Source: Deltaproteobacteria bacterium (GTDB taxonomy: Bacteria > Myxococcota > SpSt-1050 > JACRCP01). From it: a stretch of DNA of 41,510 nucleotides. Below are positions 6,301 through 34,579 of the stretch, in pieces. The stretch spans positions 1 through 41,510 of the forward strand of contig JACRCP010000080.1 in the NCBI GenBank assembly GCA_016218965.1, given 5' to 3'. Made by a program: the position numbers and the translations under genes. Below the pieces are notes generated by a model that worked only from the letters and a program-made list of their open reading frames with translations, was not told the origin of the DNA and searched no databases. Numbering within the stretch: position 1 is the stretch's first letter; each line of letters begins with the position of its first letter.

Positions 6301-9300
6301 CAGGGACCAGGCGGGCAACACAGATCCCTTCCCGGCCGAGCGCTCGTGGACAGTTGACACCGACCCGCCGGAGACCAGCATCGTCTCACGGAATCCAGAC
6401 TTGCCCGATCCGCCAAAGCGCACAAACCAGACCACGATGACGTTTGGTTTTTCCTGTGACGAGGCTTCATGCACCTTCGAGTGCAAGCTCGATTCCGGGT
6501 CGTGGGCGCCATGCAACTCGCCCAAGCAGTACTCTGCACTCGGCGAAGGGTCGCACACCTTCTATGTGAGGGCCACGGATGCGGCGGGCAATCTTGACGT
6601 TTCAGCCGCCCAGTACACGTGGACCGTGGACATCACACCACCGGATACGACCATAACATCCAAGAACCCCGCCACGAGTCCGACCAACTCAACTTCGATG
6701 TCTTTCTGGTTCCAGTGCAGCGAGACGGGAACGTTCGAATGCAAGATTGATGCCGGACCGTGGACTTCTTGCACGTCTCCAAAGAACTATTCCGCCCTCG
6801 CAGACGGCAGCCACACGTTTGCCGTTCGTTGCACCGACGAAGCCGGGAATACCGACTCATCGGAAGCTATGTACACTTGGATTGTGGACACGATTGCGCC
6901 CGAGACGACCATTTCATCCGAAACGCCGCCTGAAACCCCGACGAAATCGACTTCCATGGAGTTTGCATTCTCGTGTGCTGAGTCAGGGACAACGTCATGC
7001 CGGCTTGACACAGGTTCATGGGCCGCGTGCACCTCACCAAAACTTTACAACGGGCTTGCCGATGGGTCTCACACATTCTACGTCAAGTGTACGGACCAGG
7101 CAGGGAACACCGATGCCTCACCCGCGACGTACACCTGGGCCGTCGACACATTGCCGCCGGACACGCTCATCGATTCGAATCCGCCCTCGCTTACAAACAG
7201 TAGCTCGGCGTCCTTCACATTCCATGCGACGGACTCCGGCGCACCGTGTCCGACCTGCACATTCGATTGCAGCATCGACGGCGGAGCGTGGGGGGGGTGC
7301 TCGTCTCCAAAAGACTACTCCGGCCTGACCGAAGGTAACCACACCTTCAGCGTCCGCGCGAAGGATCAGGCGACCAACGCAGACCAGACCCCGGCGACGT
7401 ACACATGGAAGATAGACACCGTCCCGCCCGACACCAACATCCTCACGGGCTTCTTCTCGGGGAACAAGACGAACTCGACAACCGCCTCTTTCACTTTCGA
7501 CGCAACGGATTCCGGCCAGCCGTGCCCGACGTGCTCATTCCAGTGCAAGATCGACTCGGGGAGCTGGGGTGCATGCACCTCACCCAAGTCGTACAGCGGA
7601 TTGATCGAAGGACCTCACACGTTTTACGTGAGATCGACCGATCAGGCGGGTAACACCGACCAGACCCCGGCTGACTACTCTTGGACAATCGACATCACCG
7701 CACCAGACACAAGCATCACGTCCAAACCGAATGATCCAACCAATACGACGACCGCCACATTCGGATTCACGTCCGACGACCCCGGCGCGACGTTCGAGTG
7801 CAAACTCGACGCGGGTTCCTGGCTTTCGTGCACAACGCCCAAGACGTACAACGGCCTCACGGCGGGGTCGCACACGTTCAACGTCCGGGCCATCGACGAC
7901 GTTGGAAACACAGACCCGACGCCGGCCCAGTACACATGGAAGATTGACGTGATGGCACCAGAGACGTACATCGACGCGAGAGACCCGAACCTTCCGGACC
8001 CCCCCAAGAAGACGAACCGGACCGACATGACGTTCTCGTTCTCGTGCAATGACGACCCGAGCCCGTCGTACCCGTGCACATTCCAGTGCCAGATGGACGG
8101 CGGGGGCTGGCAGTCGTGCGCGTCGCCCAAGGCGTACACGGGATTGTCCGAAGGCACGCACACGTTCTATGTGAGAGCCACCGACAACGCCGGGACCACT
8201 GACGTGAGCGCGGCGAATTACTCGTGGGAGACTGACTACACCCCGTGCAACACGGAGATATCTACCAAGCCCTTCAACCCATCAAGCTCCGCGAACGCGA
8301 CGTTCGAGTTCTACATGGACGAGCCGCCCGGCACGTTCGAATGCCGGCTTGACGGCGGGGTCTGGGGCGCATGTTCTTCGCCAAAGTCGTACACCAGTCT
8401 CGCCGACGGTTGCCGTTCGTTCGAGGTGCGGTGCATCGACCAGGCGGGGAATGTTGACCAGTCGCCGGCGGCGTACGCATGGCGGGTCGACACTGACAAG
8501 CCCGAAACCTCCGTTTCGTCCAAACCGCCCGCGCTCACCAACAGCAGCACCGCCACATTCGAGTTCACGTGTGACGAGACGGCCTCGAACATCTGCGGCG
8601 GAATCGAGACCGGCGGGTGCACGTTTGAGTGCTGGCTCGATTCCAGCGGGTGGACGCTTTGCGGCTCGCCGCAGCAGTACACCAACCTCTTGGACGGTGC
8701 CCACACGTTCTATGTGCGCGCCAAGGACAAAGCGGGGAACTACGACGCCTCGCCGGAGACGTGGAACTGGGCCATAGATACCGTGCCGTGCAACTGCAGC
8801 ATAACCCAGAAGCCGAACAACCCGAGCATGTCCACCACCGCCCTCTTTGACTTTTCAGCGACGGATTCCGGCCAGCCGTGCCCGACCTGTACCTTCGAAT
8901 GTTATCTTGACGGGAGCGGCTGGTCGTCATGCTCGGCGCCCAAGACGTACACGGAGCTTTCGGACGGCCTGCACAACTTCAGCCTGCGGTGTACCGACCA
9001 AGCGGGGAATACCGACCCGACGCCGGCGAACTGGGCGTGGAACGTCATGACGTGGACGACCGAGGCGGTCGACGCGCCGAAGTACTTCACGAACTTCTAC
9101 AACCGCGCCATCACGCTCGACGCGCTCAACCGGCCGCACATCGTCTACGGCGGCGACAACCTGTACCACCGGTACTGGAACGGCTCATCCTGGAGCGTCG
9201 AGACCGTGGACGACTCGCACGGCGTCGGCCAGTATGCGGCGATCGCCTTCGATTCCGACGGGAAGATTCATATCAGCTACTACGACGAGACGAACGGCGA

Positions 9301-11035
9301 CCTCAAATACACCAGCAACGTGACCGGGTCGTGGCTCAAGTACAACATTGACTCGTCCGTTGATGTCGGCCAGTACACCTCCATTGTCCTCGACTCGAAC
9401 AACAAGGTCCACATCAGCTACTACGACGTGACCAACGGGGATCTCAAGTACGCGACTAATGAAACCGGCAACTGGGATGTCATCGCGATTGATGCCACGG
9501 GAGATGTGGGGCAATACTCGTCCATCGCCAGGGATGCAAGCAACCACATCCACATCAGCTACTATGATGTGACGAACACGCGGCTGAAATACGCGACCAA
9601 CGCGTCGGGCTCTTGGGTAACCTCCGAAGCCGACAACAGCACCGACGTCGGGCAGTACTCGTCTATCGCTCTCGACTCGAACGGCAAGGCGCATGTCAGC
9701 TACTTCGACGCGACGAGCGGCGACCTAAAGTATGCGACCAATGCGGGCGGAAGCTGGGTTTCGTCTTTGGTGGACAGCGGCGGCTATGTCGGCCGATTCA
9801 CGTCCATCGCGGCCGATTCTGGCGACAAGGTCCATATCAGTTATTTCGACGGGTCCAATGGTCAACTCAAGTACGCGACGAATGCTGGTGGGAGCATGGT
9901 CGCTGCTGCAGTCGACAGCTCACCCAACGTTGGCCAGTACACGTCGATAGCGCTTGATTCCGGCGGCAAAGTGCACATTAGTTACCAGGACTTCGACATC
10001 GATAGCGACACGATCAAGTACATCACCAACTCAAGCGGGAGCTGGGTGCAGTCGACGCTCGATGCCTTCCGGGATGTGGGCGCATGGGGCACCGATATTG
10101 CCCGTGACTCGAATGGCAAGCTCCACATCAGCTACCACGACCAGGAAACCGGAGACCTCAAGTACGCATCGAATGTCGGCGGGACCTGGGTGGCAACCAT
10201 CGTAGACAGCAACGGATACGTCGGAACATTCAGCTCAATCGCAATCGATTCGAGCAACAAGGCGCATATAAGCTACTATGATGCATGGAACGGCGACTTG
10301 AAGTACGCGACGAACGTGTCCGGAAGCTGGGTGTACACAACTGTCGATAGCGGCGGCTGGGTCGGGATGTTCACTTCAATAGTCCTCGACGCCAGCGGCA
10401 AGGCGCATATCAGCTGCTTTGATTCGACGAACTTCGACCTGAAGTACGCCACGAACTCTTCTGGAAGCTGGGTGACGACGACTCTGGACAACGTGGGCGA
10501 CGTGGGCGTCTCCAGCGGGATCGCTCGCGACTCGACTAACAAGATTCACATCAGCTACTATGATTCGACGAACGGTGACCTCAAATATGCTACCAACGCG
10601 TCAGGGAGTTGGGTGTATTCGGTGGTCGATTCGGCAGGTGCCGTGGGCACCGACACCTCGATCGCCGTCGATTCGAATGACAAGCTCCACATCAGCTACT
10701 ACGACAACACGAACCATGACCTTAAATACGCGACCAATGCGTCCGGTAGCTGGTCGACAACCGTCATTGACACCACAGGCGACGTCGGCGAGTACACGTC
10801 GATCGCGGTCGATTCCGGGAACAAGGCGCACATCAGTTACAGCCAGTACGACTGGCCGAACCGTCACCTGAAGTATGCCACAAACGCGTACGGCGCCTGG
10901 CAGTCGTTCACGATCGACGATGTCGGCTGGGTGGGCGAGTGGACTGGAATCGTGCTCGATTCCTCGGGCAAGGCACATGTGAGCTACTACGACGCATCGA
11001 TGCGGGACCTCAAGCACGCGACGAACGCGCACTGA
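326..11035 (+). CDS. Giant lipoprotein with 31 Ig-like modules and 14 propeller-type repeats
   Basis: A 3,569-aa predicted surface lipoprotein. The ATG at 326 is chosen over upstream in-frame starts because GGAGGA lies seven bases before it and it opens directly into a signal peptide ending in lipobox LGGC (Cys22). A short Cys motif ([13 protein letters not shown]) follows, then an Asp/Gly-rich linker (about residues 69-187). About 31 tandem modules of roughly 85 aa follow (188-2909), built around FECKLDGG..W..C.SP, HTF.VR.TD.AGN and a W-x-[VI]-D-T-TPPDTTI junction. Most modules carry two Cys that could form a disulphide. Residues 2910 to the end hold 14 repeats of about 47 aa with HISYYD, DLKYATN and SW cores, consistent with beta-propeller blades. 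By analogy this is an adhesin-like stalk with a distal binding or sensing head; no enzymatic motif was seen. The gene stands alone, with its own promoter and terminator. Confidence 0.9.
532..882 (+). repeat. Low-complexity Asp/Gly linker repeat
   Basis: Degenerate short DNA repeats built on gatgcgggn and gacggcgga encode a DAG/DGG-rich linker between the lipobox region and the first Ig-like module. Such acidic linkers are common after lipoboxes in Myxococcota-type surface proteins and probably serve as flexible spacers. The periodicity makes the tract prone to length change. Confidence 0.8.
887..9052 (+). repeat. Array of 31 Ig-like coding modules
   Basis: Thirty-one diverged units of about 255 bp, counted at the protein level by the W-x-D-T junction. 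Units are similar but not identical, so the array is old and not a recent amplification. Several units carry an insertion with the motif DSGAPCPTC (for example at about 3300, 4080, 7230, 7510 and 8870), which adds a second Cys pair. Confidence 0.85.
9053..11032 (+). repeat. 14 tandem blade-like repeats
   Basis: Fourteen units of about 141 bp encode beta-strand-rich repeats with the pattern SW...VD..G.VG.(Y/F)[22 protein letters not shown]. The first and last units are the most diverged. The count of 14 would suit two seven-bladed propellers, which is an inference; the fold itself is not proven here. Confidence 0.8.
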
Positions 11036-12308: not shown

Positions 12309-12851
12309 ATGCGGCGACGCTTCGGTTATGTCGCGGTTCCTGCTGCGGTCATCTGGCTCGCCTCGTGCGCGGACCTGGGCATCGACGATTTCAAGTATGC
12401 CTGCCAGCGCGACGAGGACTGCGGCGAGGGGTTCACCTGCGACCGGCTCAAGGGTTGCGTCCGCGTGGCAATGCCGACCGACGCCGGAGGAGTAACCCGC
12501 TTCCATCCGCGCGACGCCGGTCCCCGCGATGCGGGGCCGCACTTCAAAGACGTGGGCGTGGTCTTTTTCCGCCTGCCCAGTGTCTACGACCATTCCGTCG
12601 GGACCCCGGCCCCGGACGGCGGCGTGCCGGCAGGCGGCGGAATCGTCGCCCGGTCGGTGACCGGGTGGAGCGCCGCGCCCTCCATGGTGGGCGACGCCCC
12701 CGACGGCGGGAAGATGGTTCTTCGCCGGACGATGATGTTCTCCCGCCCGGCGGTTTCCGCCGACGGCGGTAACGACGGCGCGGGTGACGGGGCGACCGAT
12801 GGGGCGAGCGACGGGAGCGAGGAAACCAACGACGGCGGAGGTGACATATGA
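12309..12851 (+). CDS. Small Cys-motif lipoprotein, second gene of fibre operon
   Basis: A 180-aa protein with ATG at 12309, preceded by AAAGGAGA at 12295-12302. Signal peptide ends in lipobox LASC (Cys20). A four-Cys motif (CQRDEDCGEGFTCDRLKGC) follows, resembling the one after the lipobox in the giant lipoprotein at 326 and the IgGFc-type lipoprotein at 30511. The remainder is low complexity: DAGPRDAGP, and a C-terminal Gly/Asp/Ala tail. No known domain is recognised. Its TGA overlaps the ATG of the fibre gene (ATGA at 12848-12851), which implies translational coupling and suggests the two products act together, for example as an outer-membrane partner or secretion helper of the fibre. That role is inference. 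Confidence 0.8.
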   Translation: MRRRFGYVAVPAAVIWLASCADLGIDDFKYACQRDEDCGEGFTCDRLKGCVRVAMPTDAGGVTRFHPRDAGPRDAGPHFKDVGVVFFRLPSVYDHSVGTPAPDGGVPAGGGIVARSVTGWSAAPSMVGDAPDGGKMVLRRTMMFSRPAVSADGGNDGAGDGATDGASDGSEETNDGGGDI

Positions 12852-15800
12852 GAAAGACAATGTTGGGAACGATTCCGGTGATGGCACTGCTGGTCTTGGG
12901 AATGGTGGCGGCTCCGCAGGATGACCGGCCCCCGCCAACGATCAACTTCCCGTTCGTCCTCGTCCACCAAGGATACATCACCGACGAGAACAACCAGCCA
13001 CGAACTGGGGAATACAACTTCGTGGTGACGCTGTACGAAACGCTGGACGGCGACACGCCCGGGCCGTCGGAGACGATCGGTCAGGTCCGCGTGGCCGACG
13101 GCTTCTACAGCTTCGAGATTGGAAAGGCCAATCCGGAGATCATTCAGTATTTCGCCGCTCACAGCGAGGTGTACCTCGAGCTGCAAATCGAGGGGAACAA
13201 GTTGGGCCCAAGGCAGAGGGTCGGGGCCGTCCCCTATGCCTACGTGGCGTATGACGCCGTGGGAGACATCAATCCCGCGAGCGTCTCGATCCAGGGCAAG
13301 ACGGTCATCAACGAGAGCGGCCAATGGGTGGGCGGCATAGATGGAATCAGGGACTTCACTGTCGAACCGCAAGGGCAGGACGCGATGACCGTCAGCCAGA
13401 CGACGGACCAGATGGGTGTCCACGTGAAGCTCAATATTCATCCGGCGACCGAATTCACCGATGGATACATGCGCAAGGAGACCTACCGGTTCTTCGATTC
13501 GAAGCAGGATCCTCTCCAGGCGCAATGTGCCGCGGGCGAGGCCCTGAACGGTTTCGAGAGAGATGGGACCAGCCTGTGTGTGTCGGTTGTGCCGAGGAAT
13601 GAACCAGGCGCGATCGGTTCCGACATGATCAAGGACGGCGCGGTGACGTTCGCGAAGCTCCAGGACATGAGTTGCGTCGACGGCGAAGTAATCAAGTGGT
13701 TCGAGAGCGAGGGCCTTTGGAAGTGCGGCGCCGACTATGGCGAAGAATACAGCGCCGACTCGAACAGGGACGGGATTCTGATCGACAGCACGAATCGAAT
13801 CTCGCTCCTCAAGAACTGCTCCGGCAACCAGGCGGTTCTCAAGTGGGATGGCACGAAGTGGGGCTGCGGGGTTGACGAGAATGCCGGCGGGACGGTCAAG
13901 AATATCACGGCGACCACCCCGATTTCCGTGAGCGAGGCCAACGGCATCGTTACGATCAGTATGCCGAAGTCGGACGGCTCCAAAGCCGGTTTCCTCGATG
14001 TCAAGGAGTACGGGGAATTCAAGGGGAAGCAAAACCGCGTGAGCGACTCGTGCAAGCCAGGCGAGTTTATGCAGTCCGTCGGCGTCGACGGTTCTGTCTC
14101 ATGTGCGTCGGACCGGAACACCGTCTACAACGAGGGGAACGGAATCGAAATCGATGCGAACATGAACATCTCCCTTGACCAAAGCCACTTCGACGGGTCG
14201 GCGTACGACGCGTTGTTCGTCAACGAGAAGCAGGCGGACAGCGTCGAATCCCACATGATCAAGGGCGCGGCCGTCACAAAGGAAAAACTCGGCCCTTCGG
14301 GATGCGCAGATCGCCAGTTGCTCAAGTGGGACGACAACTTGTCCGTTTGGTATTGCGCAAACGATGACAACACGGGGACCCAGTTCTCCCCTGCGAGCGG
14401 TTCCGGACTCGCGCTTGAAAACGGCACCCAGTTCACCCTCCTCAAGACCTGTACGGCCGGGAACATCCTGAAATGGGACGGCGCCAAGTGGGATTGCGCG
14501 AGCGACCAAAACTCCGGCGGGACGATAACGTCGGTTGGCGCGGACCTGCCTTTGACCGCGACGGCGGTCGGCGGCCGGGTGACTGTTGGAATGGCCAAGG
14601 CTTCGGCGGCCGGTGACGGTTACCTCGGGAAGGACGATTTTGGCCGGTTTGACGCAAAGCAGGTCCGTGTGGCCGCGTCATGCCTCGGCGAGAGCGCCAT
14701 CAAGCAGATCAACGTCGACGGGACTGTGGTCTGCGAGTCCGACGACAACACGGTTTACACCGCAGGACCCGGCCTTGCGCTGGCCAACAACGCTTTCAGT
14801 CTGGACCCGGCCTACCTGGGCGGGAGCGCCTTCGACACGCGCTTCGTCAACGAGGGACAGACGGACGCAGTGACCGCACAGATGATTGCCGCCGGGGCCG
14901 TCACGACCGACGAGATTGCCAACGGCACGATCCTGTTCGGCGACCTCGCCGCGAACTCGTGCAATGCAAACGAGGTGATGAAGCGGAACGGCGCGAACAC
15001 CGCATGGGTTTGCGCGGGGGACAGCAACACGACGTATTCCGCCGCGGCGGGCTCGGGCCTGGCTCTCAACGGCACTGAGTTCGGCCTCACACAGGCGTAC
15101 CTGGATGGCTCGCCCTATGACGGCAGATTCGTGAACGAGGGCCAGTCTTCCAGTGTCAGTACGGCCATGATCCAGCCCGGGGCGATCACCTCCGACCGCC
15201 TGGCCAACTTTGGCTGCGTGGCCGGGCAAGTCATCAAATGGACCAACAGCACTTGGGCCTGCGGCGACGACAACAACTCGGGTCCCGGCTACACCGCGGC
15301 AAACGGGATTGTGCTTCAAGGGACGCAGTTCGGGCTTACTCCGAGTTACCAGGACGGCTCCGCGCACGACGGGAGGTTCATCAATGAGGGCCAGGCCGGG
15401 GGCGTGACCAGCGCCGTGCTCGCCGACAATGCCGTGACCACTGCCAAGATAGCCGACGGGACGATCACGTTTTCCGATCTGGGTGCGAACTCGTGCGGGG
15501 CCAGCCAGGTCATCAAGCGAAACGCGTCGGGGGCTGCCTGGGTGTGCGGGACCGACGATAACACCGTCTACTCCAGTGGGACCGGCTTGGATCTTTCCCC
15601 CGGGAACCAGTTCAGTCTGGCTGCGGGCCACCAGGACGGTTCGGTATTCGACGGGCGATTTGTGAACGAGGGCCAGACCGGCGGTGTCACGACCGCGATG
15701 CTCGCGGACGGGGCGGTGAGCGCCGCCAAGATCGCCAACTTCGGATGCGCGGCCGGTCAGGTCATCAAGTGGTTGAATGGCGCGTGGACCTGCGGAGAAG

Positions 15801-18800
15801 ACGACGACTCACTCGGCACCGTCACGAGCGTTGCGACCGGGGCCGGGCTGACCGGCGGACCAATCACGGGCTCGGGCGTCATCAGCATCGACACCGGCGG
15901 CGTGACGGGCCAGATGATCGCCGACGGAACAATCACCTTCAGCGACTGGGCTGCCAGCGGATGTTCGGCCAGAAAGATTCCCAAGTACAACGGCACGGCA
16001 TGGGAATGCTCGGACGACCTGAACTCGGGCGGCGACATCACGGCGGTCAACCCAGGGACCGGCCTTACCGGCGGAGGATTGTCCGGCGCGGTCACATTGA
16101 GCGCGGACACATCCTACCTCCAGCGCCGGGTGGCCTCCACGTGCGCGGCAGGCAGCGCCATCAGGGCCGTCAACGCCGACGGGACGGTGACCTGTGAAAC
16201 CGACGACGGGCAAAACTTCACGGCGTCCAACGGCGTCGTGCTTGTTGGCACCGACCTGCAACTCAGCACCACCGGATGCGCGATTGGCTACGTCTGGAAG
16301 TACAACGGCGCGAGCTGGACGTGCCTCTTGGACGCCGACTCGGGCGGCGACATCACGGCCGTCACGGCGGGCCCCGGTCTCACCGGAGGCGGGCTGACAG
16401 GGCCGGTGACGCTCGATGCCGCTTTCGCGGGCAGCGGCGCGGCCAGTACTGTCTCACGGAGTGACCACGGCCACGTCGGCGCGTACGAGCCTGCCATCGC
16501 GGCGGGGGCCAACAACCAGTACTGGCGGGGCGACAAGACCTGGCAGACACTCAACACGACCGCCGTCAGCGAGGGGGCCAACCTCTACTACACCGACGCC
16601 AGGGCCAGGGCCTCGCTGTCCGGCGCCGCGCCTGTAACGTTCAACCCCGTGACGGGCTCGATAGGCGTCGCCACGAACTCGTCCTCCTCGGCCGGTATCG
16701 TGGCCTCGGGAGCGGGCCAGGCGGGCAAGGTGTGGAAAACGGATGTGGGCGGCAACCCGGCGTGGCGGGACGACACCGACTCGGGCGGCGACATCACAGC
16801 CGTCAACCCAGGGACCGGCATCACGGGTGGCGGCACCTCCGGCGCGGTGACGATCACGGCCGATACCGCCTACCTCCAGCGCCGTGTCTCCGCGTCGTGT
16901 GTCGCGGGAACCTACATGAGGGTAGTCAATGCCGACGGAACAGTGCAGTGCCAGAATGACGCCGACACCACGTATTCGGCGGGGCCGGGGTTGGCGCTCA
17001 ATCTCGGCACAAAACAGTTCTCCCTTGACGAAACCGGCTGCGCCGCCTACGAGGTTCTGAAGCGCAACGCGGGCAACAACGGCTGGGAGTGCGTTGCCGA
17101 CGACGACACGAAGTACTCCGGCGGAAGTGGCATTTACATCTCGCCGGCCAACGTCATCTCGCTGCCGGTTACGTGCGGCGTGAACAAGATACTCAAGTAC
17201 GACGGCAGCAACTGGACCTGTGCCGACGACGCCGACACGAACTCGGGTGGCACGGTGACGAGCGTCACCGCCGGTTCGGGGCTCGCCGGGGGAACGATAA
17301 CGACGTCCGGCACGTTAAGCGTGGCGAGCGGCGGCGTGACGGGCGCCATGATTCAGGACGGTGCCGTCACGTCCGCGAAGATCGCCGATGCCTCGATCCT
17401 GTTCGGTGACATCGGCCAGAACGGCTGTGCCGCGAATCAGGTAGTGAAGCGAAACGCCGGCGGCACGGCGTGGACGTGCGCGGCCGATGGGGACCACACC
17501 TACCTCGCCGGCGCGGGGATGAAACTCACTTCGGACACGTTCAGCGTTGACGACACGGGCTGTTCGGCGTTCGAGGTCCTGAAACGTAATGCTTTGAACA
17601 ACGGATGGGAGTGCGTCGCCGACAGCGACACCACTTACGTCCAGGGTTCCGGGATCCAGATCACCGGAACGACGATCTCGCTCCCGCTCGGGTGCAATCC
17701 CGGAAAAATCCTTGAGTGGGACGGGTCGGCATGGAACTGTGTCGACGATTCCAACTCTGGCGGCACCGTGACGAACGTTTCAACGGGTGCCGGCCTTACC
17801 GGCGGTCCCATCACCTCCACCGGCTCGGTCAGCATCGCCGCCGGTGGCGTGACGGGCGCCATGATCCAGGATGGCACTGTCACCTTTGCGGACTGGTCGT
17901 CGAACTCGTGTTCGGCCGGGCAAGTGCCCAAGTGGAACGGCACGGCGTGGGCTTGTGCGGCGGACGCCGCGTCGGGCGGCACCGTGACGCAGGTGAGCAC
18001 GGCTGGACCGATCCAGGGCGGGCCGATCACCGGGAGCGGAACCATCTCGATCACCCAGGCGACTTCCACCACCGATGGATACCTCTCGTCGGGCGACTGG
18101 GGCGTTTTCAATGGCAAGCAGACGCGGGTCCTCGGCAGTTGCGGGTTGAACCAGTGCATCGTCAAGGTGAACCAGGATGGATCGGTGGACTGCGACGCGT
18201 GCGGGGGCGCGGGTACGGTCACCAGCGTCGACACGGGTCAGGGCCTTGCCGGGGGACCGGTCACGACATCGGGCACGATCCGCCTCGATGACGCGCATTT
18301 CACCGGCACGTACTACGACCCCGTCTTTGTGAACGAAAACCAGATTGACGGCGTTACCACATCGATGATCGCCGACAGGAACATCACCCGGCAGAAGCTC
18401 GCGAAGAACGAATGCACCGACGGCCAGATACTGAAATGGAGGAACGCGGACAACGCCTGGAAGTGCGAGAACGACGTCGACACGTACGGCTCGTACGGGG
18501 CCGGGGCTGGCGGCGGGCTGGAGCTGAGCGGGAGTTCATTCTACATGCTCCGAACGTGCGCGGCCGGTCAACTCCTCAAGTGGAACGGGGCGGCGTGGAC
18601 TTGCGCCAACGACATCGACACCGACACCAACTCCGGCGGCACGGTCACCTCGGTGTCAGCCACCGTCCCCCTGTACAGCACCGGAGGTAACTCGCCCAAC
18701 ATCTACATGAACCAGGCGAATTCCGTGACGACGGGCTACCTTACATCGTCGGACTGGAACACTTTCTACAACAAGCAGGCCCGCGTCTGGCAATCATGCT

Positions 18801-21154
18801 CGGCCGGGAACTCGATCAGAGTCGTCAACTCCGACGGTTCCGTCACTTGTGAGCCCGCTTCGCAGTACTCGGCCGGACAGGGGATTACGATCGCCAGCAA
18901 CCAGATAAGCCTCGACACGACGTTCGCCGACAACAGGTATGTGAACGCGAACGGCGACACCGTGACCGGAACGCTTTTCATAAACGCAAACGGCCTGAAC
19001 GTGGGCACGACTCAACTCGTTGCGGCGAACGGCAATGTCGGCGTGGGGACCAACAGCCCGAGCGAAAAGCTGGAGGTCGGAGGCGAGGCATACGTCACAA
19101 CGCAACTTCAGGTCGGGAGCTTCAAGGCTGGCACAGACGTTTTTGGCCGCATTGCGGCCACAGGAAACAACGCCGAGATCTCGCTCTCCGACCGCAACGC
19201 CGCGACGTGGGCAGACTCGACGCGGTGGGTCATCTACTCTCCCGACGGCAAGCTCAGGACGTGGCGGAACGGAAGCGACAAAGGCTGGGCAATCGACACC
19301 GACGGGAACGTCGGCGTCGGCACGACTTCGCCTCTTTCGACCGCCAAGTTGTCCATCCCCGTCGGCGACGTGTACCTCGGCGAGTACTGGCAAAGCGGCG
19401 TCAACGCCCCGTCCAAGATCAGGTGGGACGACAACTTCAGCAACCACTGGATCGGGTACGACCCCACGACGGGCGCATGGCTCAATCTGGTCAACGAGCC
19501 GTCGGGCGGTTTTTCGTTCAGCAACACTTCGGACGGCACTCTCGTCCAGATCGGCGGTTCGTCCTCGACGATCGGAAAGGGCGTCTACATGGCCGGGAAC
19601 TTGGGCGTCGGAACGACGCCGCAGATCGGATACCCCGTGGCTGTCGCGGGCAACATCAAGTTCTCCGGGGCGGGGAGCTACATCGAGTTTCCCGACGGGA
19701 CGCGGCAGTACACCGCCGACAGCGGGACGTACTGGGTATCGAGCGGGAACGATATCTCGAACTCGAACCCCGGGAACGTCGGCGTGGGGACTTCTGCGCC
19801 CGACACGCTCCTTCACGTGCGAAATTCCGGCGACAACGGAGGCGCGATCCGGGTGGGCGGCAACGCGATTGCCACGGGAGTGGACAAACGCGTCCTGTTC
19901 GGCGACTCGGACTACGTGGCGGTCGGCGAGTATGCGGGCGTGGACAACACGCTTGAACTCAAGGGCACCAGGCTCTACTTGAACGGGGACGTCGGCGTGA
20001 AGACCACGACCCCCGGCTATCCGCTCGACGTCAACGGCGCCATCAGGTCCTCGTCGGGCGGCTTTGTCTTTCCGGACGGCTCGATTCAGACCGTGGCCGC
20101 GGGCGCCAGCATGTGGGCGTCGGCGGGGTTCAACATCTACAACCTGAACGCCGGGAACGTGGGGATCGGCACGTCGGCGCCGACGCAGGCGCTCGATGTC
20201 AAGGGCAACGTCAAGGTATCGGGAACGCCGTTTGTCAACTACATGGAATTCCCGGACGGAACGAAGCAGTTTTCCGCCGCGGGGGCCAGCTTCTGGTCCT
20301 CCGCCGGATCGAACATCTTCAACAACAACGGCGGCTATGTCGGAATCGGCACGTCGACACCGGATCAGTTGGTGCAGATCAAGAACTCCTCGAACAACGG
20401 CGCCGTCGTGCGCATCGGAGGGAACGCCATCCAAACCGGTCTCGAAAAGCGCCTGCTGTTTGGCGACAGCGACTACGTGGCCGTTGGCGAGTACAGCGGT
20501 GCCGACAACACACTGGAGTTGAAGGGGACGAGATTGTATGCGAATGGAGACATGGCCATAGGGACCTCCAACCCGTCAGGCTACAAGCTGTATGTGAATG
20601 GGACGCAGTACACGAACGGGACGCAGTACGTCAACGGGTCAATGTATGTGTACAGCACGAACGCCTACAAGTATGGCAGCAGTACTTGGACGGTCCTGTC
20701 CGACATGAGACTCAAGAGGAACGTGCAGCCGCTGGACGGCGCGTTGGGCAGGCTGCTGCGGCTCCGTGGCGTCAATTTTGAGTGGAAGGATCCGAAGAAC
20801 CACGGCAACCTAACGGGAGTGCGGACCGGCATGCTGGCTCAGGACGTGGAAAAGGTGTTCCCGGAGTGGGTGGACACAAACGCGGAGACCGGGTACAAGC
20901 AGATCACCTACGACGGTTTTGAGGCGCTCACGGTCGAAGCGGTTCGCGAGCTCAAGGTCGAGAACGACGTTGTCAAAGCAGAGAACGCTGAGTTGAAGAA
21001 ACGAATCGATGCCATAGAAAGGTCACTGGCCCGCGGCGAGAAGCTGGGTGGCGGCGGTGTCGACTTCGGTCATTGGGTGACGCTCGCGGGGCTAGTCTCG
21101 CTCTTTGCCGCTGGAATCGTCCTCATGAGGACGCAGGGAAGGAGACGCGACTGA
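12848..21154 (+). CDS. Giant tail-fibre-like protein with S74 chaperone and C-terminal TM
   Basis: A 2,768-aa protein. A signal peptide (residues 1-22) precedes an N-terminal domain (about 35-160; LVHQGYITD...GFYSFEIG...PRQRVGAVPYAY) shared with the genes at 37856 and 41023. Eleven or so phage-fibre-like modules follow, each with SGGTVTSV...G.GLTGGPI and a C-x(12-15)-C pair near KWNG.AW.C. From about residue 2020 the sequence changes to beta-helix/stalk modules (GNVGVGTTSP, YIEFPDGTRQY). Residues 2618 onward form a peptidase-S74 intramolecular chaperone: Ser2618 and Lys2623 in SDMRLK, then GMLAQDVEKVFPEWV. A coiled coil (RELKVENDVVKAENAELKKR) and one TM helix (about 2743-2762) ending in QGRRRD follow. 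In S74 proteins the chaperone trimerises the fibre and self-cleaves before the Ser. Here cleavage would leave a 151-residue membrane stub. Start codon overlaps the upstream stop; the kinase starts 33 bp downstream. Confidence 0.9.
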   Translation: MRKTMLGTIPVMALLVLGMVAAPQDDRPPPTINFPFVLVHQGYITDENNQPRTGEYNFVVTLYETLDGDTPGPSETIGQVRVADGFYSFEIGKANPEIIQYFAAHSEVYLELQIEGNKLGPRQRVGAVPYAYVAYDAVGDINPASVSIQGKTVINESGQWVGGIDGIRDFTVEPQGQDAMTVSQTTDQMGVHVKLNIHPATEFTDGYMRKETYRFFDSKQDPLQAQCAAGEALNGFERDGTSLCVSVVPRNEPGAIGSDMIKDGAVTFAKLQDMSCVDGEVIKWFESEGLWKCGADYGEEYSADSNRDGILIDSTNRISLLKNCSGNQAVLKWDGTKWGCGVDENAGGTVKNITATTPISVSEANGIVTISMPKSDGSKAGFLDVKEYGEFKGKQNRVSDSCKPGEFMQSVGVDGSVSCASDRNTVYNEGNGIEIDANMNISLDQSHFDGSAYDALFVNEKQADSVESHMIKGAAVTKEKLGPSGCADRQLLKWDDNLSVWYCANDDNTGTQFSPASGSGLALENGTQFTLLKTCTAGNILKWDGAKWDCASDQNSGGTITSVGADLPLTATAVGGRVTVGMAKASAAGDGYLGKDDFGRFDAKQVRVAASCLGESAIKQINVDGTVVCESDDNTVYTAGPGLALANNAFSLDPAYLGGSAFDTRFVNEGQTDAVTAQMIAAGAVTTDEIANGTILFGDLAANSCNANEVMKRNGANTAWVCAGDSNTTYSAAAGSGLALNGTEFGLTQAYLDGSPYDGRFVNEGQSSSVSTAMIQPGAITSDRLANFGCVAGQVIKWTNSTWACGDDNNSGPGYTAANGIVLQGTQFGLTPSYQDGSAHDGRFINEGQAGGVTSAVLADNAVTTAKIADGTITFSDLGANSCGASQVIKRNASGAAWVCGTDDNTVYSSGTGLDLSPGNQFSLAAGHQDGSVFDGRFVNEGQTGGVTTAMLADGAVSAAKIANFGCAAGQVIKWLNGAWTCGEDDDSLGTVTSVATGAGLTGGPITGSGVISIDTGGVTGQMIADGTITFSDWAASGCSARKIPKYNGTAWECSDDLNSGGDITAVNPGTGLTGGGLSGAVTLSADTSYLQRRVASTCAAGSAIRAVNADGTVTCETDDGQNFTASNGVVLVGTDLQLSTTGCAIGYVWKYNGASWTCLLDADSGGDITAVTAGPGLTGGGLTGPVTLDAAFAGSGAASTVSRSDHGHVGAYEPAIAAGANNQYWRGDKTWQTLNTTAVSEGANLYYTDARARASLSGAAPVTFNPVTGSIGVATNSSSSAGIVASGAGQAGKVWKTDVGGNPAWRDDTDSGGDITAVNPGTGITGGGTSGAVTITADTAYLQRRVSASCVAGTYMRVVNADGTVQCQNDADTTYSAGPGLALNLGTKQFSLDETGCAAYEVLKRNAGNNGWECVADDDTKYSGGSGIYISPANVISLPVTCGVNKILKYDGSNWTCADDADTNSGGTVTSVTAGSGLAGGTITTSGTLSVASGGVTGAMIQDGAVTSAKIADASILFGDIGQNGCAANQVVKRNAGGTAWTCAADGDHTYLAGAGMKLTSDTFSVDDTGCSAFEVLKRNALNNGWECVADSDTTYVQGSGIQITGTTISLPLGCNPGKILEWDGSAWNCVDDSNSGGTVTNVSTGAGLTGGPITSTGSVSIAAGGVTGAMIQDGTVTFADWSSNSCSAGQVPKWNGTAWACAADAASGGTVTQVSTAGPIQGGPITGSGTISITQATSTTDGYLSSGDWGVFNGKQTRVLGSCGLNQCIVKVNQDGSVDCDACGGAGTVTSVDTGQGLAGGPVTTSGTIRLDDAHFTGTYYDPVFVNENQIDGVTTSMIADRNITRQKLAKNECTDGQILKWRNADNAWKCENDVDTYGSYGAGAGGGLELSGSSFYMLRTCAAGQLLKWNGAAWTCANDIDTDTNSGGTVTSVSATVPLYSTGGNSPNIYMNQANSVTTGYLTSSDWNTFYNKQARVWQSCSAGNSIRVVNSDGSVTCEPASQYSAGQGITIASNQISLDTTFADNRYVNANGDTVTGTLFINANGLNVGTTQLVAANGNVGVGTNSPSEKLEVGGEAYVTTQLQVGSFKAGTDVFGRIAATGNNAEISLSDRNAATWADSTRWVIYSPDGKLRTWRNGSDKGWAIDTDGNVGVGTTSPLSTAKLSIPVGDVYLGEYWQSGVNAPSKIRWDDNFSNHWIGYDPTTGAWLNLVNEPSGGFSFSNTSDGTLVQIGGSSSTIGKGVYMAGNLGVGTTPQIGYPVAVAGNIKFSGAGSYIEFPDGTRQYTADSGTYWVSSGNDISNSNPGNVGVGTSAPDTLLHVRNSGDNGGAIRVGGNAIATGVDKRVLFGDSDYVAVGEYAGVDNTLELKGTRLYLNGDVGVKTTTPGYPLDVNGAIRSSSGGFVFPDGSIQTVAAGASMWASAGFNIYNLNAGNVGIGTSAPTQALDVKGNVKVSGTPFVNYMEFPDGTKQFSAAGASFWSSAGSNIFNNNGGYVGIGTSTPDQLVQIKNSSNNGAVVRIGGNAIQTGLEKRLLFGDSDYVAVGEYSGADNTLELKGTRLYANGDMAIGTSNPSGYKLYVNGTQYTNGTQYVNGSMYVYSTNAYKYGSSTWTVLSDMRLKRNVQPLDGALGRLLRLRGVNFEWKDPKNHGNLTGVRTGMLAQDVEKVFPEWVDTNAETGYKQITYDGFEALTVEAVRELKVENDVVKAENAELKKRIDAIERSLARGEKLGGGGVDFGHWVTLAGLVSLFAAGIVLMRTQGRRRD
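19778..20551 (+). repeat. Internal 213-bp duplication in fibre stalk
   Basis: Segments 19778-19990 and 20339-20551 have equal length and encode near-matching 71-residue units containing GGNAI.TG..KR.LFGDSDYVAV and DNTLELKGTRLY. A third, shorter repetition of NGTQY units follows at about 20594-20650. Tandem growth of the stalk just before the chaperone is the likely origin. Confidence 0.75.
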
Positions 21155-21187: not shown

Positions 21188-23707
21188 ATGGCGACCCGTC
21201 TGAGGGAATACGAGCTTCTGGAGTCTCTCGGAAAGGGGGGAATGGGCGAGGTCTTCAAGGCGCGGAACACGCTCCTTGATGACGACTACGTCGCGATCAA
21301 GGTTATCAGACGGGACCTTGTCGATAATCCTGAACTGCGCAGGCGTTTCCTGCAGGAAGCGAAAGTCCTTCTAAAACTGGATCACCCGTGCATCACCAAG
21401 TTCCGGCACATCTTCGAAGAACAGGGTCAACTCTATCTCGTAACTGAACTGCTCAGCGGCCGGACTCTGCAGGACGAGTTGAACCGGCGTGCGCGGGTTT
21501 CGTTGAACGAGGGGATGGAGTGGCTCAGACAGATGACCTTGGGCATCGCGTATGCCCACAAGGCAGGGGTGATACACCGGGACCTCAAGCCCGCCAATAT
21601 CCTCTTGATGACGAGCGGAGGGCTCAAGGTACTCGATTTCGGGCTGGCGAAGGAACTCGGGATGGGCAGCAGTGGAGGGGCGACGACGTCCAGCCAGATC
21701 ATCGGGACGCCTCCATACCTTCCCCCCGAAGTGGTGACGGGGAACGTGGCGGTCAAGGACATGGGCCCGGAGGGAGACGTCTACGCATTGGGGGTCATTG
21801 CGTACAGGATGTTCGGCGGGAAACTCCCGTACGGGATTGACGAAAACGAGTCGTCTTTCAAGTTGCTTTCGACCCTCATCCGGCTGCACGTTGCCAACAC
21901 TCCGATCGAACATGTGGGGAAGCTTCGTCCGGATCTGCCTGTCGTGTTCTGCCAGGCGCTCATGACCGCATTGCAGCGGAAACCCACTTTGAGGCCGTCA
22001 GACGCCCAGACATGGCTGGAAGTGCTGTCGGCCAGTGTCGGCGGGCCGCCGGAGCACGGAGTCGAACAACGAAAAACCTGGCCAGTTTCGAGCGGGACCG
22101 CGAAGGTCGGCGAAACCTTGTATGAGACTCCCGAACCCGACAGAAACAGAACTCACCCGCAACTCGAAATAACGCTGCACGCGGGTGCGATCTTTCCGCC
22201 GGCAAGACCGGATGTCGCGGAGCCGGCGGCGGATGGCACCGAGACAACCCGTCCGGGGTTCCCACCGGGCGATCTGCAAACGAATGACGTCGACGGCGTT
22301 TCCGATGAAGCGACGTCTGTCGATGCGGCACGGCTTCTGCACCCCCCGTCGTCACTGATGAACAGATACGAATTCGAAGGCGAGAAGGGAAAGCGCGACG
22401 CCCGCTGGGGAGTCGCGGACAACTACCTCGAATCCGCCGGAAACCTTCCCGTTTCCTACACCAAGACCTGGGGAGTTTTGAAGTCTGCGAACCGGACAAC
22501 GTGGATCGTCGCATTGGCCTGCGTTGCTGCGGGTGTCGTGATTGCGTTTGCTTTTCGTTTTGCCGACCGGGGCGGGGAACGAGAGAAGACCGGGCCCCCA
22601 GGCGCCTTGGTCGTCGCCGCCCGGCCGGCAGATGCCGAGATGTTCATTGACGGCAAGGTGTACGGAAACTTGATCATCGAAACCGATCCGCCCGGGGCGG
22701 TAATCACGATGGACGGCGCCGTGCTCGTGAACACGACTCCGCTCAAGTATGAAAAGTTGCTGGCCGAGGTGGATCACACGGTCGTGGCGGAGAAGACGGG
22801 TCTCAAGACCGTGACACAAAAAGTCCGCGTCAAGGAGGGCGAAACAACGATCATCAGGATTTTCATGGGCATGAGTCGGGCGAAGCTGGCGGTATCCAGT
22901 TCGCCGCAGGGCGCGCAGGTCTATCTCAACAACGAAAAAAAGGGAACGACGCCCGTCGAGATCTCGGACCTCGACACCAGCCGCGAGTACACACTCCGCC
23001 TGATCAAGACCGGGTACGAGGAGGAGGAGACGATCGTCAAGTTCGAAAGTCCCGAGGACAAGTGGGTGTCGCTCACGCTTCAAAGGCCGTCCACCAAGGT
23101 CGGGGCGGTCAAGGAAAAGGAAAAAGAGAAGGAGAAGGAAAAGGAGAAAGAGAAGGAGAAAGAGAAGGAAAAGGTCGGAGAGAAGGTCAAACCGGGCGGC
23201 ATGGGATTCCTCAGCGTCAACTCGACGCCATGGTCCTACGTTTTCATAGACGGGAAAGACACCGGAAAGACCACGCCGCTAGTCGAGTTCCAACTGGCGT
23301 CCGGCTCCCACTGGGTCACGCTGAAGACCAAGGACGGGAAGGAGAAAACCCAGAAGATCACGATCAAAGCGGGCGAGGCGATTTTTATCAAAGAGAGTTT
23401 AGCTGAAAGTATCCCGATGCCCCACACCTTGGACCCATCGCAGGTCAGCGGCTTGGTGAAGTCGAAGTACCCTGCGATAAAAATATGCATGGAGAAACAG
23501 GAAGTGTCAGGGAAAATGGTGGTCTTGTGGACGATACAAAGAAACGGCAGGGTTTCCGATATTGAAGTCACTACTCCCGGGTTTGCGGGGACGCCGGTTG
23601 CCACGTGCGTTGCGGCAGTTATCGCGCTGATGCAGTTTCCCGAATTTTCCGGGGAACCGATACCCGTGAAGTGGCCGTTTAACTTGAATGTACTTGGCAA
23701 ACGATAG
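21188..23707 (+). CDS. Transmembrane Ser/Thr protein kinase with PEGA and AgmX/PglI-type C-terminus
   Basis: An 839-aa kinase, last gene of the fibre operon. The kinase domain (about 8-280) has GKGGMGEVF, VAIK (Lys38), HRDLKPAN (Asp132), DFG (150-152) and GTPPYLPPEV, so it should be active. A 150-residue linker leads to one TM helix (about 438-458). The C-terminal part, predicted outside the cytoplasmic membrane, has PEGA-type beta domains (about 472-560, 565-632, 671-738) split by a Lys-Glu spacer (642-662). Residues 750-835 (YPAIKICMEK, GKMVVLWTIQRNGRVSDIEV, FPEF) match the AgmX/PglI C-terminal domain known from myxobacterial gliding and polar-growth proteins, which is related to the TonB C-terminus. 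PEGA and AgmX-type domains suggest envelope or peptidoglycan sensing. Cotranscription with the fibre suggests it monitors or controls fibre assembly; this is inference. The ribosome-binding site is weak. Confidence 0.92.
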   Translation: MATRLREYELLESLGKGGMGEVFKARNTLLDDDYVAIKVIRRDLVDNPELRRRFLQEAKVLLKLDHPCITKFRHIFEEQGQLYLVTELLSGRTLQDELNRRARVSLNEGMEWLRQMTLGIAYAHKAGVIHRDLKPANILLMTSGGLKVLDFGLAKELGMGSSGGATTSSQIIGTPPYLPPEVVTGNVAVKDMGPEGDVYALGVIAYRMFGGKLPYGIDENESSFKLLSTLIRLHVANTPIEHVGKLRPDLPVVFCQALMTALQRKPTLRPSDAQTWLEVLSASVGGPPEHGVEQRKTWPVSSGTAKVGETLYETPEPDRNRTHPQLEITLHAGAIFPPARPDVAEPAADGTETTRPGFPPGDLQTNDVDGVSDEATSVDAARLLHPPSSLMNRYEFEGEKGKRDARWGVADNYLESAGNLPVSYTKTWGVLKSANRTTWIVALACVAAGVVIAFAFRFADRGGEREKTGPPGALVVAARPADAEMFIDGKVYGNLIIETDPPGAVITMDGAVLVNTTPLKYEKLLAEVDHTVVAEKTGLKTVTQKVRVKEGETTIIRIFMGMSRAKLAVSSSPQGAQVYLNNEKKGTTPVEISDLDTSREYTLRLIKTGYEEEETIVKFESPEDKWVSLTLQRPSTKVGAVKEKEKEKEKEKEKEKEKEKEKVGEKVKPGGMGFLSVNSTPWSYVFIDGKDTGKTTPLVEFQLASGSHWVTLKTKDGKEKTQKITIKAGEAIFIKESLAESIPMPHTLDPSQVSGLVKSKYPAIKICMEKQEVSGKMVVLWTIQRNGRVSDIEVTTPGFAGTPVATCVAAVIALMQFPEFSGEPIPVKWPFNLNVLGKR
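23111..23174 (+). repeat. 64-nt uninterrupted purine tract in kinase gene
   Basis: Only A and G occur on this strand, in alternating aag/gag codons for about ten Lys-Glu pairs. The peptide is a charged rigid spacer between the second and third PEGA regions. Homopurine runs can form triplex structures and slip; changes in multiples of six keep the frame and alter spacer length. Confidence 0.9.
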
Positions 23708-27829: not shown

Positions 27830-30511
27830 CTACTCGTTGAGCGGGAGCAAGTTCAGGCCGCCGGGGTACATGTATGACGTGTAGCTCGCGTAGCCGTAGA
27901 CGACGATCCCGACAAGCTCCGGCGAGTTGATCGTGTGCTGGCCAGGCTGGAGCTGGATCTTGGCCACGGAGTATGCGCCGGAGCCGACGGGTGTGAAGCC
28001 GGATACGGGCTGGCCGTCGAGCGTCACCGCCGCCCCCGCCGGCGCGGTGATGTTCACGAACGATTCGGTGTACGTGGCGGGGGTCAAAAAGTTGTAGTAC
28101 GTGCGGTACTGCTCGACGGGAACGCCCAGTGACAACGACGGATCGCCCACGTCGGCCGTCGGAGTGCCGTTGTAGTTCTCGCCCACCATGAGCTGGCCCA
28201 CGGCAAAGCCCATGGTGCCCGTCAATTCGAAATCCTTGTCCGTCGAGAACTCGATCCATCCGCCCTTGTCGAGTATCACGTCGGCATGGACGCTTGCCGG
28301 GTTGAACGTCACCTTGTTTCCCGCCGAAGCGGAGATGATCCGGTACAGGTTCGGTTCCGCGGGGCTCTGCTTGGGGACAGTGTGCGTAAGTATGTAGTGG
28401 TTGCCCCAAGTCTCGACGGGGAACATCTGCTCCTCCATGTGATCGCAGGCCCAGCGGTTGTACGGGACGAAGGCGCAGTTGTGTCCCGAGAAGACGGCGA
28501 CCGGCTTGTCTGCGCTGATGCTCGACCCCGTCACGTCGTAGTTCTTGCCGACGTTGCAATAGTAGTCGGTGGCGATCGGCTGAAACGGGTCTTTTTCCCA
28601 GTTCGAGCACGTCGTCGGCACCGCCGATCCGATCTGGAGGACCTCGCCGCGTCCAAGCGAAAACTGGACCGTCTGCCCGGGCGTGTACGTGCCGACCCCG
28701 CCCTGGCCGGGGAGGGTGTTGCACGAGGACTTGACCGTGACGGTGGTCCCCGCCTGGGTTCCCACGACGGCGAAGATGGATGGCGAGCCGCCCCTGAACG
28801 TGACGGTGAGGAAGATCTTCTGGCCGACAACGAGACTCTGGTACGCGAGCGCGTAGTAGCTGGTCGAAAGCACGTGGGTCGGAAGGAGGAGCGACGCGTC
28901 ATTGGAGTACGAGAACACGCTTCCCGCCTGGAACTGCAGCGGGTTGAACTGATACACCGTGACGGGAACGCTGCTCTTCAAGACGTACGCCCCGTCGGCG
29001 AGCTTGAGCGATGTCTCGCTCTGGAACGTGCCCTTGAGCTCCGGCACCCACGGCAGCACTATGGTCTTCACCTCGCCGGGCGCAACCGTCTCGGTCGCCA
29101 CCGTGGACGCCCCCCGCGTCACCGTCACGCTCGCGGTCGCCGTATGTGTGTTCGACACGGCCACGGCATAGTCGAAGCCGTCGGCGAGCTGGGTGTTCAT
29201 GGTCACCGTCGGCCAGTACTCGCAGCCGATGTATGCCTTGGTCATTTCGGCCTCGGTGCACGCGTCCATGCAACGGCCGAAGACGCAGTGGTTCCCGACG
29301 TTTTGGGGGTCCGAGCAGGTCTCTTTTTCCGTAAACGCCGTGCCTTGGGCGTTGCACTCGACGATCTTGTCGCCGTCGCACTTGGTGAAGCCCGCCGAGC
29401 AGACCTTGGGGACGCACTTGTCGGCTATGCATATCGTCGCGGCGCCGCAGCCCTTGAGGTCGCGGGCGGTCCCCTTGTCGTTGCAGACGGTGGTCGTGGC
29501 CGTGTCGGCGGCGGTGCACAGCGGGGCGTCGGCGTCGGTGCAGCACTTGACCTCACCGGGGGTGCAGATTTGCTGGACACACGCCGCGTTCTCGCAGATG
29601 AATCCCTGGACGCACGGAGTATCGATCCACGCAGTGCCGCCGCCGTTGCACTCCTGCACGGCGCCGTCGCCCGGCGCGCAGCGCTTTTCTCCCGGGGCGC
29701 ATGTCTGCGACAAACACATGTACACGGACCCGCCGTCCACGGTCATAACGTCGCAGTATGACCCCACGCCGCACTGCACCTGGTCCCATGCCGTCCCGAC
29801 GCTGTTGCACGTGTTGAGGATGGTGCCATTGTCGGTGCACTTTGTCTCGGCCGGGCTGCAGATGATGTCCTTGCACGTGTCTATCTCGCAGATCTGCCCG
29901 CCGGGGCACTTTTCGGACGCAAACCCGGTCCCCATGTCGTTGCACGTCTGGACAGACCCGTCGCCGGCGCAGCGCTTTTCGCCCGCGTTGCAGATGACGC
30001 CCATGCACTTGCTGTTGACGCAAATCCTCCGCTCGCCGCACTCGGTCTGCACCCAGGTCGAGGTCGCCGGATCGCACGACTGGAGCAGGCCCTCTGCGGT
30101 GCACTTGCGCTCGCCCGGGGTGCAGCTTGGCGTCTTGCACTCGCCGCCGCGGCAGACCATGCCTTCGGGGCAGTACTGGCGGACCCAGGCCGATCCCTCG
30201 GCATTGCAGACCGAGAGGTCGTCGCCGACGCAGGACTTCTCGCCGGGGGTGCACTTGCGTGTGCCCGGGTCGGTTCCGCCGTCGCCCTCGGAAACGCAGA
30301 CGCCCGCAGCGGTGTCGCAGACCTTGCCCGAGGGGCACTCGCCGTTGGTCTTGCACGTCGTCCCCTGCGTCGAACCGTCCGCCTCTCCGAGCGCGCCTTC
30401 CCCGCACCCGGCGGCGGACAAACCGGCGACCGAGAGCAGAAGCAGCAGCGCGGCAGCTCTTGCCACAGAGAACACAGAGTACACCGAGAGACTAATCATG
30501 GATTCCACCAT
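27830..30511 (-). CDS. Cys-rich lipoprotein with IgGFc-binding-type domain
   Basis: An 893-aa predicted outer-surface lipoprotein. A hydrophobic leader (AALLLLLSVAGLSAAGC) ends in a lipobox. About residues 50-412 hold roughly eight Cys-rich repeats of about 45 aa (C.PGE..C.....V..CN..GT.W....C..G..C....C). Residues about 420-890 resemble the N-terminal domain of IgGFc-binding proteins, with VAVFSGHNCAFVPYN and CDHMEEQMFPVETWG as diagnostic segments. In bacteria this combination is common in Myxococcota-like genomes; its ligand is unknown. An ATG at 30499 is an alternative start with GGTGG before it. The DNA encoding SVYSVFSVA is a 9-bp repeat (30462-30488). Divergent from the DUF2341/Big_1 gene. 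Confidence 0.88.
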   Translation of the reverse strand: MVESMISLSVYSVFSVARAAALLLLLSVAGLSAAGCGEGALGEADGSTQGTTCKTNGECPSGKVCDTAAGVCVSEGDGGTDPGTRKCTPGEKSCVGDDLSVCNAEGSAWVRQYCPEGMVCRGGECKTPSCTPGERKCTAEGLLQSCDPATSTWVQTECGERRICVNSKCMGVICNAGEKRCAGDGSVQTCNDMGTGFASEKCPGGQICEIDTCKDIICSPAETKCTDNGTILNTCNSVGTAWDQVQCGVGSYCDVMTVDGGSVYMCLSQTCAPGEKRCAPGDGAVQECNGGGTAWIDTPCVQGFICENAACVQQICTPGEVKCCTDADAPLCTAADTATTTVCNDKGTARDLKGCGAATICIADKCVPKVCSAGFTKCDGDKIVECNAQGTAFTEKETCSDPQNVGNHCVFGRCMDACTEAEMTKAYIGCEYWPTVTMNTQLADGFDYAVAVSNTHTATASVTVTRGASTVATETVAPGEVKTIVLPWVPELKGTFQSETSLKLADGAYVLKSSVPVTVYQFNPLQFQAGSVFSYSNDASLLLPTHVLSTSYYALAYQSLVVGQKIFLTVTFRGGSPSIFAVVGTQAGTTVTVKSSCNTLPGQGGVGTYTPGQTVQFSLGRGEVLQIGSAVPTTCSNWEKDPFQPIATDYYCNVGKNYDVTGSSISADKPVAVFSGHNCAFVPYNRWACDHMEEQMFPVETWGNHYILTHTVPKQSPAEPNLYRIISASAGNKVTFNPASVHADVILDKGGWIEFSTDKDFELTGTMGFAVGQLMVGENYNGTPTADVGDPSLSLGVPVEQYRTYYNFLTPATYTESFVNITAPAGAAVTLDGQPVSGFTPVGSGAYSVAKIQLQPGQHTINSPELVGIVVYGYASYTSYMYPGGLNLLPLNE
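30462..30488. repeat. Three 9-bp CACAGAG-type units in signal-peptide DNA
   Basis: Plus-strand units GCCACAGAG, AACACAGAG and TACACCGAG. Strings with this period are a familiar dispersed intergenic repeat in several environmental bacterial groups. Here one lies inside the 5' coding end of the IgGFc-type lipoprotein. Confidence 0.6.
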
Positions 30512-34520: not shown

Positions 34521-34555
34521 AATTTGGCTTGCAGGACGCCTTGGTCGGTGCTATT

Positions 34556-34579
34556 GACCCCGGTGTTGATCACCGGGTC
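34556..34579 (+). other. Hairpin before the OmpA-family gene
   Basis: Arms GACCCCGGTG and CACCGGGTC pair with one bulged base across a TTGAT loop. It lies 36 bp after the DUF2341 stop and 6 bp before the OmpA ribosome-binding site. There is no T-run. It may act as an RNA-stability or attenuation element between the two genes. Confidence 0.4.

Follow-up and report, generated by a model that had tools for sequence, protein, structure and literature searches.

The membrane-held, self-releasing chaperone of MYRF has been described as a phage domain that eukaryotes put to a new use. Here we report parts arranged in that order in bacterial fibre proteins encoded on contig JACRCP010000080.1 of a Deltaproteobacteria bacterium (Myxococcota; assembly GCA_016218965.1), analysed over its 41,510 nucleotides (the window). 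The domain concerned, the S74 (ICA) chaperone, trimerises via a C-terminal helix and templates the stalk of the protein, and its Ser-Lys dyad cuts the chain in the trimer only (PMC4690869, PMC8326128). In MYRF, S74-type self-cleavage frees the N-terminal part from the endoplasmic reticulum (PMC3742443). In Bdellovibrio, the MAT fibre Bd3182 cleaves itself at Ser782 of S74, the S782A change blocks the cut, and MAT fibres are displayed on the cell surface (PMC10769870).

Both complete S74 fibre proteins of the window end in an S74 chaperone, a coiled coil and a single C-terminal transmembrane (TM) helix, as an earlier sequence-only reading had claimed; Pfam, heptad counts, hydropathy and, for gene 1, AlphaFold2 (AF2) modelling agree on this. 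The combination of S74 and TM in bacterial fibres is a new element on the known MAT-like/S74 plan, and S74-coiled coil-TM is a recurrent bacterial design. Being recurrent and tied to S74, it offers a simple bacterial setting in which to ask why a self-cleaving trimeriser is anchored, and it is relevant to the question of whether the anchored form reached eukaryotes from phages or from bacteria.

Architecture of the fibre proteins

The features of fibre gene 1 are as follows.

12848-21154 (+): fibre gene 1, 2768 aa, with signal peptide, N-domain, a long beta fibre made of repeats, then S74 chaperone, coiled coil and TM (open reading frame (ORF), translation, S74 Pfam match)
12848-12913 (+): probable signal peptide MRKTMLGTIPVMALLVLGMVAA, residues 1-22, with a putative cleavage site (translation; hydrophobic N-terminus, Kyte-Doolittle (KD) 2.08)
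12941-13315 (+): N-terminal beta-sandwich domain, VLVHQGYITD...AVPYA (iterated hidden Markov model (HMM), hhalign, AF2 model)
13316-20698 (+): fibre shaft, repeats and then a probable stalk (GVGTSAPD.., YKLYVNGTQYTNGTQYVNG) immediately 5′ of the chaperone (translation; likeness to phage tail-fibre stalks)
20699-20872 (+): S74/ICA chaperone core (Pfam PF13884, E 1.8e-14; dyad conservation; AF2)
20699-20701 (+): Ser2618, with the predicted cut before it; Lys2623 at 20714-20716 (S74 dyad)
20918-21046 (+): chaperone C-terminal helix/coiled coil, residues 2691-2733 (AF2 helix, model 144-186; heptad count)
21068-21139 (+): C-terminal TM helix, HWVTLAGLVSLFAAGIVLM and flanks, after the linker GEKLGGGGVDFG (KD 1.89, shuffles, AF2 helix, model 194-217)
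21128-21151 (+): basic C-terminal tail RTQGRRRD, predicted cytoplasmic (translation; positive-inside rule)

Codon 2618 of the 2768-aa ORF begins at 20699, which would give a C-terminal piece of 151 residues; the coordinates, residue numbers and stub length of the earlier reading are exact. Two further fibre genes lie near the end of the window.

37856-40243 (+): fibre gene 2, 795 aa from the ATG (mechanical ORF from 37772), with signal peptide ending in ALA before DVPG, N-domain, shaft, S74, coiled coil and TM
39803-39976 (+): gene 2 S74 core, with Ser650 (counted from the ATG) at 39803-39805 and Lys655 at +5
40046-40129 (+): gene 2 coiled coil RELKAENDALKAESREIRGELSVLRKTL (heptad count)
40169-40225 (+): gene 2 TM helix IGLAGTIWALAAVALAAVV (KD 2.27, 6/2000 shuffles)
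41023-41510 (+): fibre gene 3, truncated where the window stops (signal peptide ending in AFA before DVPG, N-domain profile match)

In the best 28-residue segment of the coiled coil, 75% of the a/d positions are hydrophobic; elsewhere the share is 20-25%. The T5 S74 protein also has a coiled coil after the chaperone (PMC4690869). A coiled coil in this position is normal for the family and the TM alone is unusual; the earlier reading is to be corrected on this point.

TM and signal peptide calls are based on hydropathy, inspection and the monomer model. The four S74 tails of the genome have best 19-residue KD means of 1.89-2.76 (1.89 in gene 1, 2.27 in gene 2), which were equalled by residue shuffles in 43, 6, 2 and 11 of 2000 trials each, the first two figures being those of genes 1 and 2. 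On a second, rougher insertion scale with approximate values, the four tails give +1.4 to -1.8, and the minimum among 100 other Myxococcota S74 tails is 6.5. A misread gene end was considered and can be ruled out: the GC content at third codon positions is coding-like in the tail (0.68-0.73), and the design is common to four paralogues.

In gene 1 the translated linker between coiled coil and TM is Gly-rich and the tail is Arg-rich. This tripartite appearance recalls a sorting signal that is cut by a sortase-like enzyme, whether of the MYXO-CTERM, GlyGly-CTERM/rhombosortase or PEP-CTERM/exosortase kind or an undescribed one, and the genome holds four MYXO-CTERM proteins over cut-off, three CPBP-family membrane proteins and one rhomboid. 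No exosortase was found in the genome, however, and its sole rhomboid, at 33.7 bits, does not reach the 84 bits set as cut-off for a rhombosortase; inspection shows the L005 rhomboid to be an ordinary one. The S74 tails fall outside the MYXO-CTERM matches and do not have the Cys motif of real ones, and after S74 cleavage the signal would lie on the discarded stub. Such tails are also rare, a lone C-terminal TM being present in 12 of 428 sampled genes (four of them the S74 proteins and two MYXO-CTERM proteins), and they are lacking in the sister fibres discussed below. A removed sorting signal, which the sequence-only reading had named among the findings that would undo it, is disfavoured and we regard it as unlikely.

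Chaperone family, dyad and fold

Pfam Peptidase_S74 matches residues 2618-2675 of gene 1 (E 1.8e-14, 54.2 bits) and ORF residues 678-735 of gene 2 (E 1.6e-16, 60.7 bits), both against a cut-off of 22. Besides one sub-threshold chance match in P0001, it is the sole match in the Pfam scan of the gene proteins, which returned no Ndt80-type DNA-binding and no MYRF C-terminal domain. The AF2 monomer has pLDDT >90 across most of the chaperone and its C-terminal helix. It shows a 43-residue helix (2691-2733), a break and a separate 24-residue terminal helix (2741-2764). In a Foldseek search with the chaperone model the best PDB match is the human MYRF ICA (7dc3, E 1e-5), followed by 3gud and 3gw6, such that the MYRF ICA outranks phage ICAs as a fold match. 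At the profile level, a search of the PDB finds 6f45 (distal subunit of a long tail fibre), the tail fibre 8jov and, at an E value of 4e-7, the MYRF ICA again (7dc3).

The Ser-x4-Lys pair is as had been claimed, SDMRLK in gene 1 (Ser2618/Lys2623) and SDVRLK in gene 2 (Ser650/Lys655 when counted from the ATG at 37856; ORF numbering differs), and none of the genome's four S74 proteins has lost either residue of the dyad. Counted on an HMM alignment, and so independently of the selective tail pattern used to place the Ser, the dyad Ser is kept in 99/102 other Myxococcota, 106/106 genome and 93/93 virus non-gap rows; more than 95% of the S74 proteins in the alignment retain the dyad.

This conservation, in all four proteins and nearly all relatives, speaks against a permanent anchor, that is, a chaperone that is inactive or stays bound after cleavage, with the TM keeping the fibre at the inner membrane. 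An inner-membrane tether also fits a 2768-aa fibre poorly, the sister fibres without S74 have no anchor, and the T5 chaperone-fibre interface is weak and mainly hydrophilic (PMC4690869). Some features do favour such an anchor, as the TM and basic tail resemble those of an ordinary type I protein, and both ends appear membrane-anchored in the Micavibrio-like relatives described below. On balance a permanent anchor seems improbable.

Distribution of the anchor

It had been proposed that S74 proteins be surveyed for a TM after the chaperone. A Pfam search of 195 Myxococcota genomes gave 70 with an S74 match. The TM is found in 4/4 S74 proteins of the present genome and in 0/98 distinct S74 tails from other Myxococcota (Fisher 2e-7). 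Among 80 loci from named bacterial genomes it occurs solely in L132 and L179, both Micavibrio-like Alphaproteobacteria, whose order has S74 in 57/142 genomes. S74-coiled coil-TM was then seen in 33 of the 42 Micavibrio-like tails examined, a non-random set with one doubtful member (L353).

Viral tails are without a TM in 78 of 79 cases. The statement that phage S74 fibres have no membrane anchor holds as a rule, and L193 is the exception. The L193 fibre (2561-4363), on a viral contig, combines a Sec-like signal peptide with a TM at the C-terminus, and by inspection the contig carries tape-measure-like and tail-like genes.

The TM might do no more than raise the local concentration of three chains in the membrane, as a trimer nucleator, release being incidental. 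Phage S74 members trimerise without a TM, and the TM is lacking in the 98 other Myxococcota and the 78 viral tails, which argues against a need of this kind. Long tandem-repeat chains would nevertheless benefit from nucleation, and T5 folding has been proposed to begin at the C-terminal triple helix (PMC4690869). Nucleation as the only role is quite improbable, but it is compatible with, and does not exclude, the release mechanism set out below.

The Micavibrio-like family (L132, L179, L340-L388) consists of S74-coiled coil-TM fibres that reach 5730 codons and start in a pilin-like helix GNVFFTLFGAVAVVGVLGA; some contain YadA-head repeats. No published description of these proteins, or of any bacterial S74 with TM, was found in the open-access literature, which marks the giant Micavibrio-like S74 proteins as an undescribed family within that literature. 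Descent of the anchor from an ancestor shared with this family was considered and rejected; the S74 tree (FastTree) does not group them, though deep supports are low. In the same tree the S74 of contig C177 of the present genome, which also bears a TM, lies in a different clade from the other three, with Planctomycetota sequences (support 0.92). That a chaperone from another clade has a TM suggests selection for the gain or the retention of anchors, weak as the deep supports are.

Sister fibres in the same genome

Fibre gene 3 overlaps contig C177 by 38 identical bp at its end, and C177 encodes an S74-TM end; gene 3 very probably continues as the C177 protein. A fourth S74 fibre is split over contigs C181 and C113, which overlap by 141 bp. 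The genome total is four S74 proteins, every one with a C-terminal TM.

The N-terminal domain of these fibres occurs 15 times in the genome. About ten further proteins that carry it (C116, C180, C206, C178, C146, C40, C312) have tips that are collar-like SETRPVNANLNYIIKY or beta-rich, and the N-domain fibres form a tip-swapped repertoire resembling the MAT family. Seven sister fibres (C116, two in C180, C206, C178, C146 and C40) have complete, non-S74 C-termini, and none of these shows a C-terminal TM. By our own arithmetic the distribution, 4/4 S74-tipped against 0/7 other-tipped fibres, has a chance of 1 in 330.

As the sister fibres are free of anchors and a lone terminal TM is rare among the sampled genes, the TM follows the cleavable chaperone; it is not a general trait of fibres or of secreted proteins. 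The sister fibres have the same N-domain, and therefore a TM is unneeded for fibre export in general, which rules out a role of this kind. Moreover, with TM-free sisters, an uncut S74 fibre would be the sole kind retained, and this argues for the TM as a retention checkpoint.

A proposed mechanism

What the analysis directly shows is which sequence elements are present, how far they are conserved, what fold is predicted and that the TM is coupled to S74. The explanation that we consider the most probable, with some reserve, is assembly of a membrane-held trimer followed by self-release of the fibre from an anchored stub. The proteins would be secreted trimeric fibres of MAT-like type, with an S74 chaperone that has acquired a membrane anchor. 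Each chain would enter the periplasm via its signal peptide, and the C-terminal helix would halt translocation, leaving the chaperone tethered to the inner membrane and the Arg-rich tail on the cytoplasmic side. By means of their coiled coils, three such chaperones may then associate and serve as the template for the fibre stalk. Ser2618 and Lys2623 would align solely in the folded trimer, where the chain would be cut before Ser2618; the fibre would depart and the 151-residue chaperone-TM stub remain in the membrane. The TM would act as a retention and quality-control tether that cleavage relieves, which is the logic of MYRF in the opposite membrane orientation. For MAT-like fibres generally, this suggests a quality-control step.

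Several points weigh against this explanation. We infer cleavage, trimerisation and membrane insertion, and with them release and surface display, from sequence and a monomer model. Of the four TM helices, that of gene 1 gives the poorest values (43/2000 shuffles; a sum of +1.4 on the rough insertion scale). The N-terminus of the Micavibrio-like relatives is also a hydrophobic, pilin-like helix, so that cleavage there would free the C-terminal end alone, and this weakens release as a universal reading. The explanation also includes no route for the fibre across the outer membrane. It should be pointed out that, with MAT-type surface fibres as the closer biological relatives, a released fibre is no less likely to be displayed than to be shed.

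More broadly, and more tentatively, bacteria may have evolved more than once (in a Myxococcota lineage, in Micavibrio-like Alphaproteobacteria and in at least one phage) a membrane-tethered, self-cleaving trimerisation device of a type otherwise known only from eukaryotic MYRF. It would serve as a folding checkpoint, letting giant fibres leave the inner membrane only as trimers. The odds of this proposal fall a little short of even.

Neighbouring genes

A Ser/Thr kinase that contains PEGA repeats and ends in a domain of the AgmX/PglI type (21188-23707, +) lies 34 bp 3′ of fibre gene 1 and is possibly co-transcribed with it. Upstream of fibre gene 2 is a nucleotidyltransferase and HepT-like gene pair of the MNT/HepT toxin-antitoxin type (36192-37071). 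Also near the fibre genes are an IgGFc-binding-domain protein (27830-30511, -) and an OmpA protein with thrombospondin type 3 repeats (34524-36164, +). A 3621-aa protein at 170-11035 of the window, whose N-terminal part is Asp/Gly-rich, consists mainly of Ig-like (Big_13) repeats.

Comparison with known systems

Phage S74 tail fibres and tailspikes, such as endoNF of K1F and T5 pb1, share the chaperone family, the dyad, the coiled-coil end and an upstream beta-helical stalk with the window proteins, but as a rule they have no signal peptide and no TM. The Micavibrio-like proteins have S74, a long coiled coil, linker, single TM and basic tail in common with them. They differ in having a pilin-like hydrophobic N-helix (GNVFFTLFGAV) instead of a signal peptide and MAT-like domain, and their S74 lies elsewhere in the tree.

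The MAT S74 subfamily has a signal peptide, a beta-rich N-domain of ~110-130 aa, a long repetitive trimeric fibre and an autocleaving C-terminal S74 with SDxxxK (PMC10769870), a plan proposed here for the window proteins too. The N-domain is common to fibre proteins of many phyla including Bdellovibrionota (iterated HMM). Its profile matches Bdellovibrionota N-domains with an hhalign probability of 97.4% (E 1e-11), the single sequence L156 giving 37%; the AF2 beta sandwich has no significant PDB match in a fold search. The C-terminal TM is lacking in the Bdellovibrionota S74 proteins compared (L130, L149, L156, L165, L166, L175, L180, L186), which come from metagenome-assembled genomes and do not include Bd3182 itself. 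Judged from sequence, the window proteins resemble MAT fibres by signal peptide, N-domain and S74 tip, and the anchor appears as the new element.

MYRF/MrfA shares the ICA with Ser-x4-Lys, a C-terminal coiled coil (trimeric in MYRF), one TM and, on the mechanism proposed above, a self-released N-terminal part (PMC3742443, PMC8326128, PMC3828593). It differs in its DNA-binding cargo, its cytosolic N-terminus (type II) and its large lumenal C-terminal part, whereas the N-terminal part of the window fibres would be exported, their short basic tail is predicted to be cytoplasmic and their cargo is a fibre. The MYRF-like design first proposed from the sequence is borne out in domain order, ICA profile and fold match, the dyad in 4/4 proteins and a TM specific to S74-tipped fibres; it has to be amended as to orientation, which is mirrored, and cargo. 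The window proteins are not MYRF, because the Pfam scan finds no MYRF DNA-binding domain in them, but they would work like MYRF.

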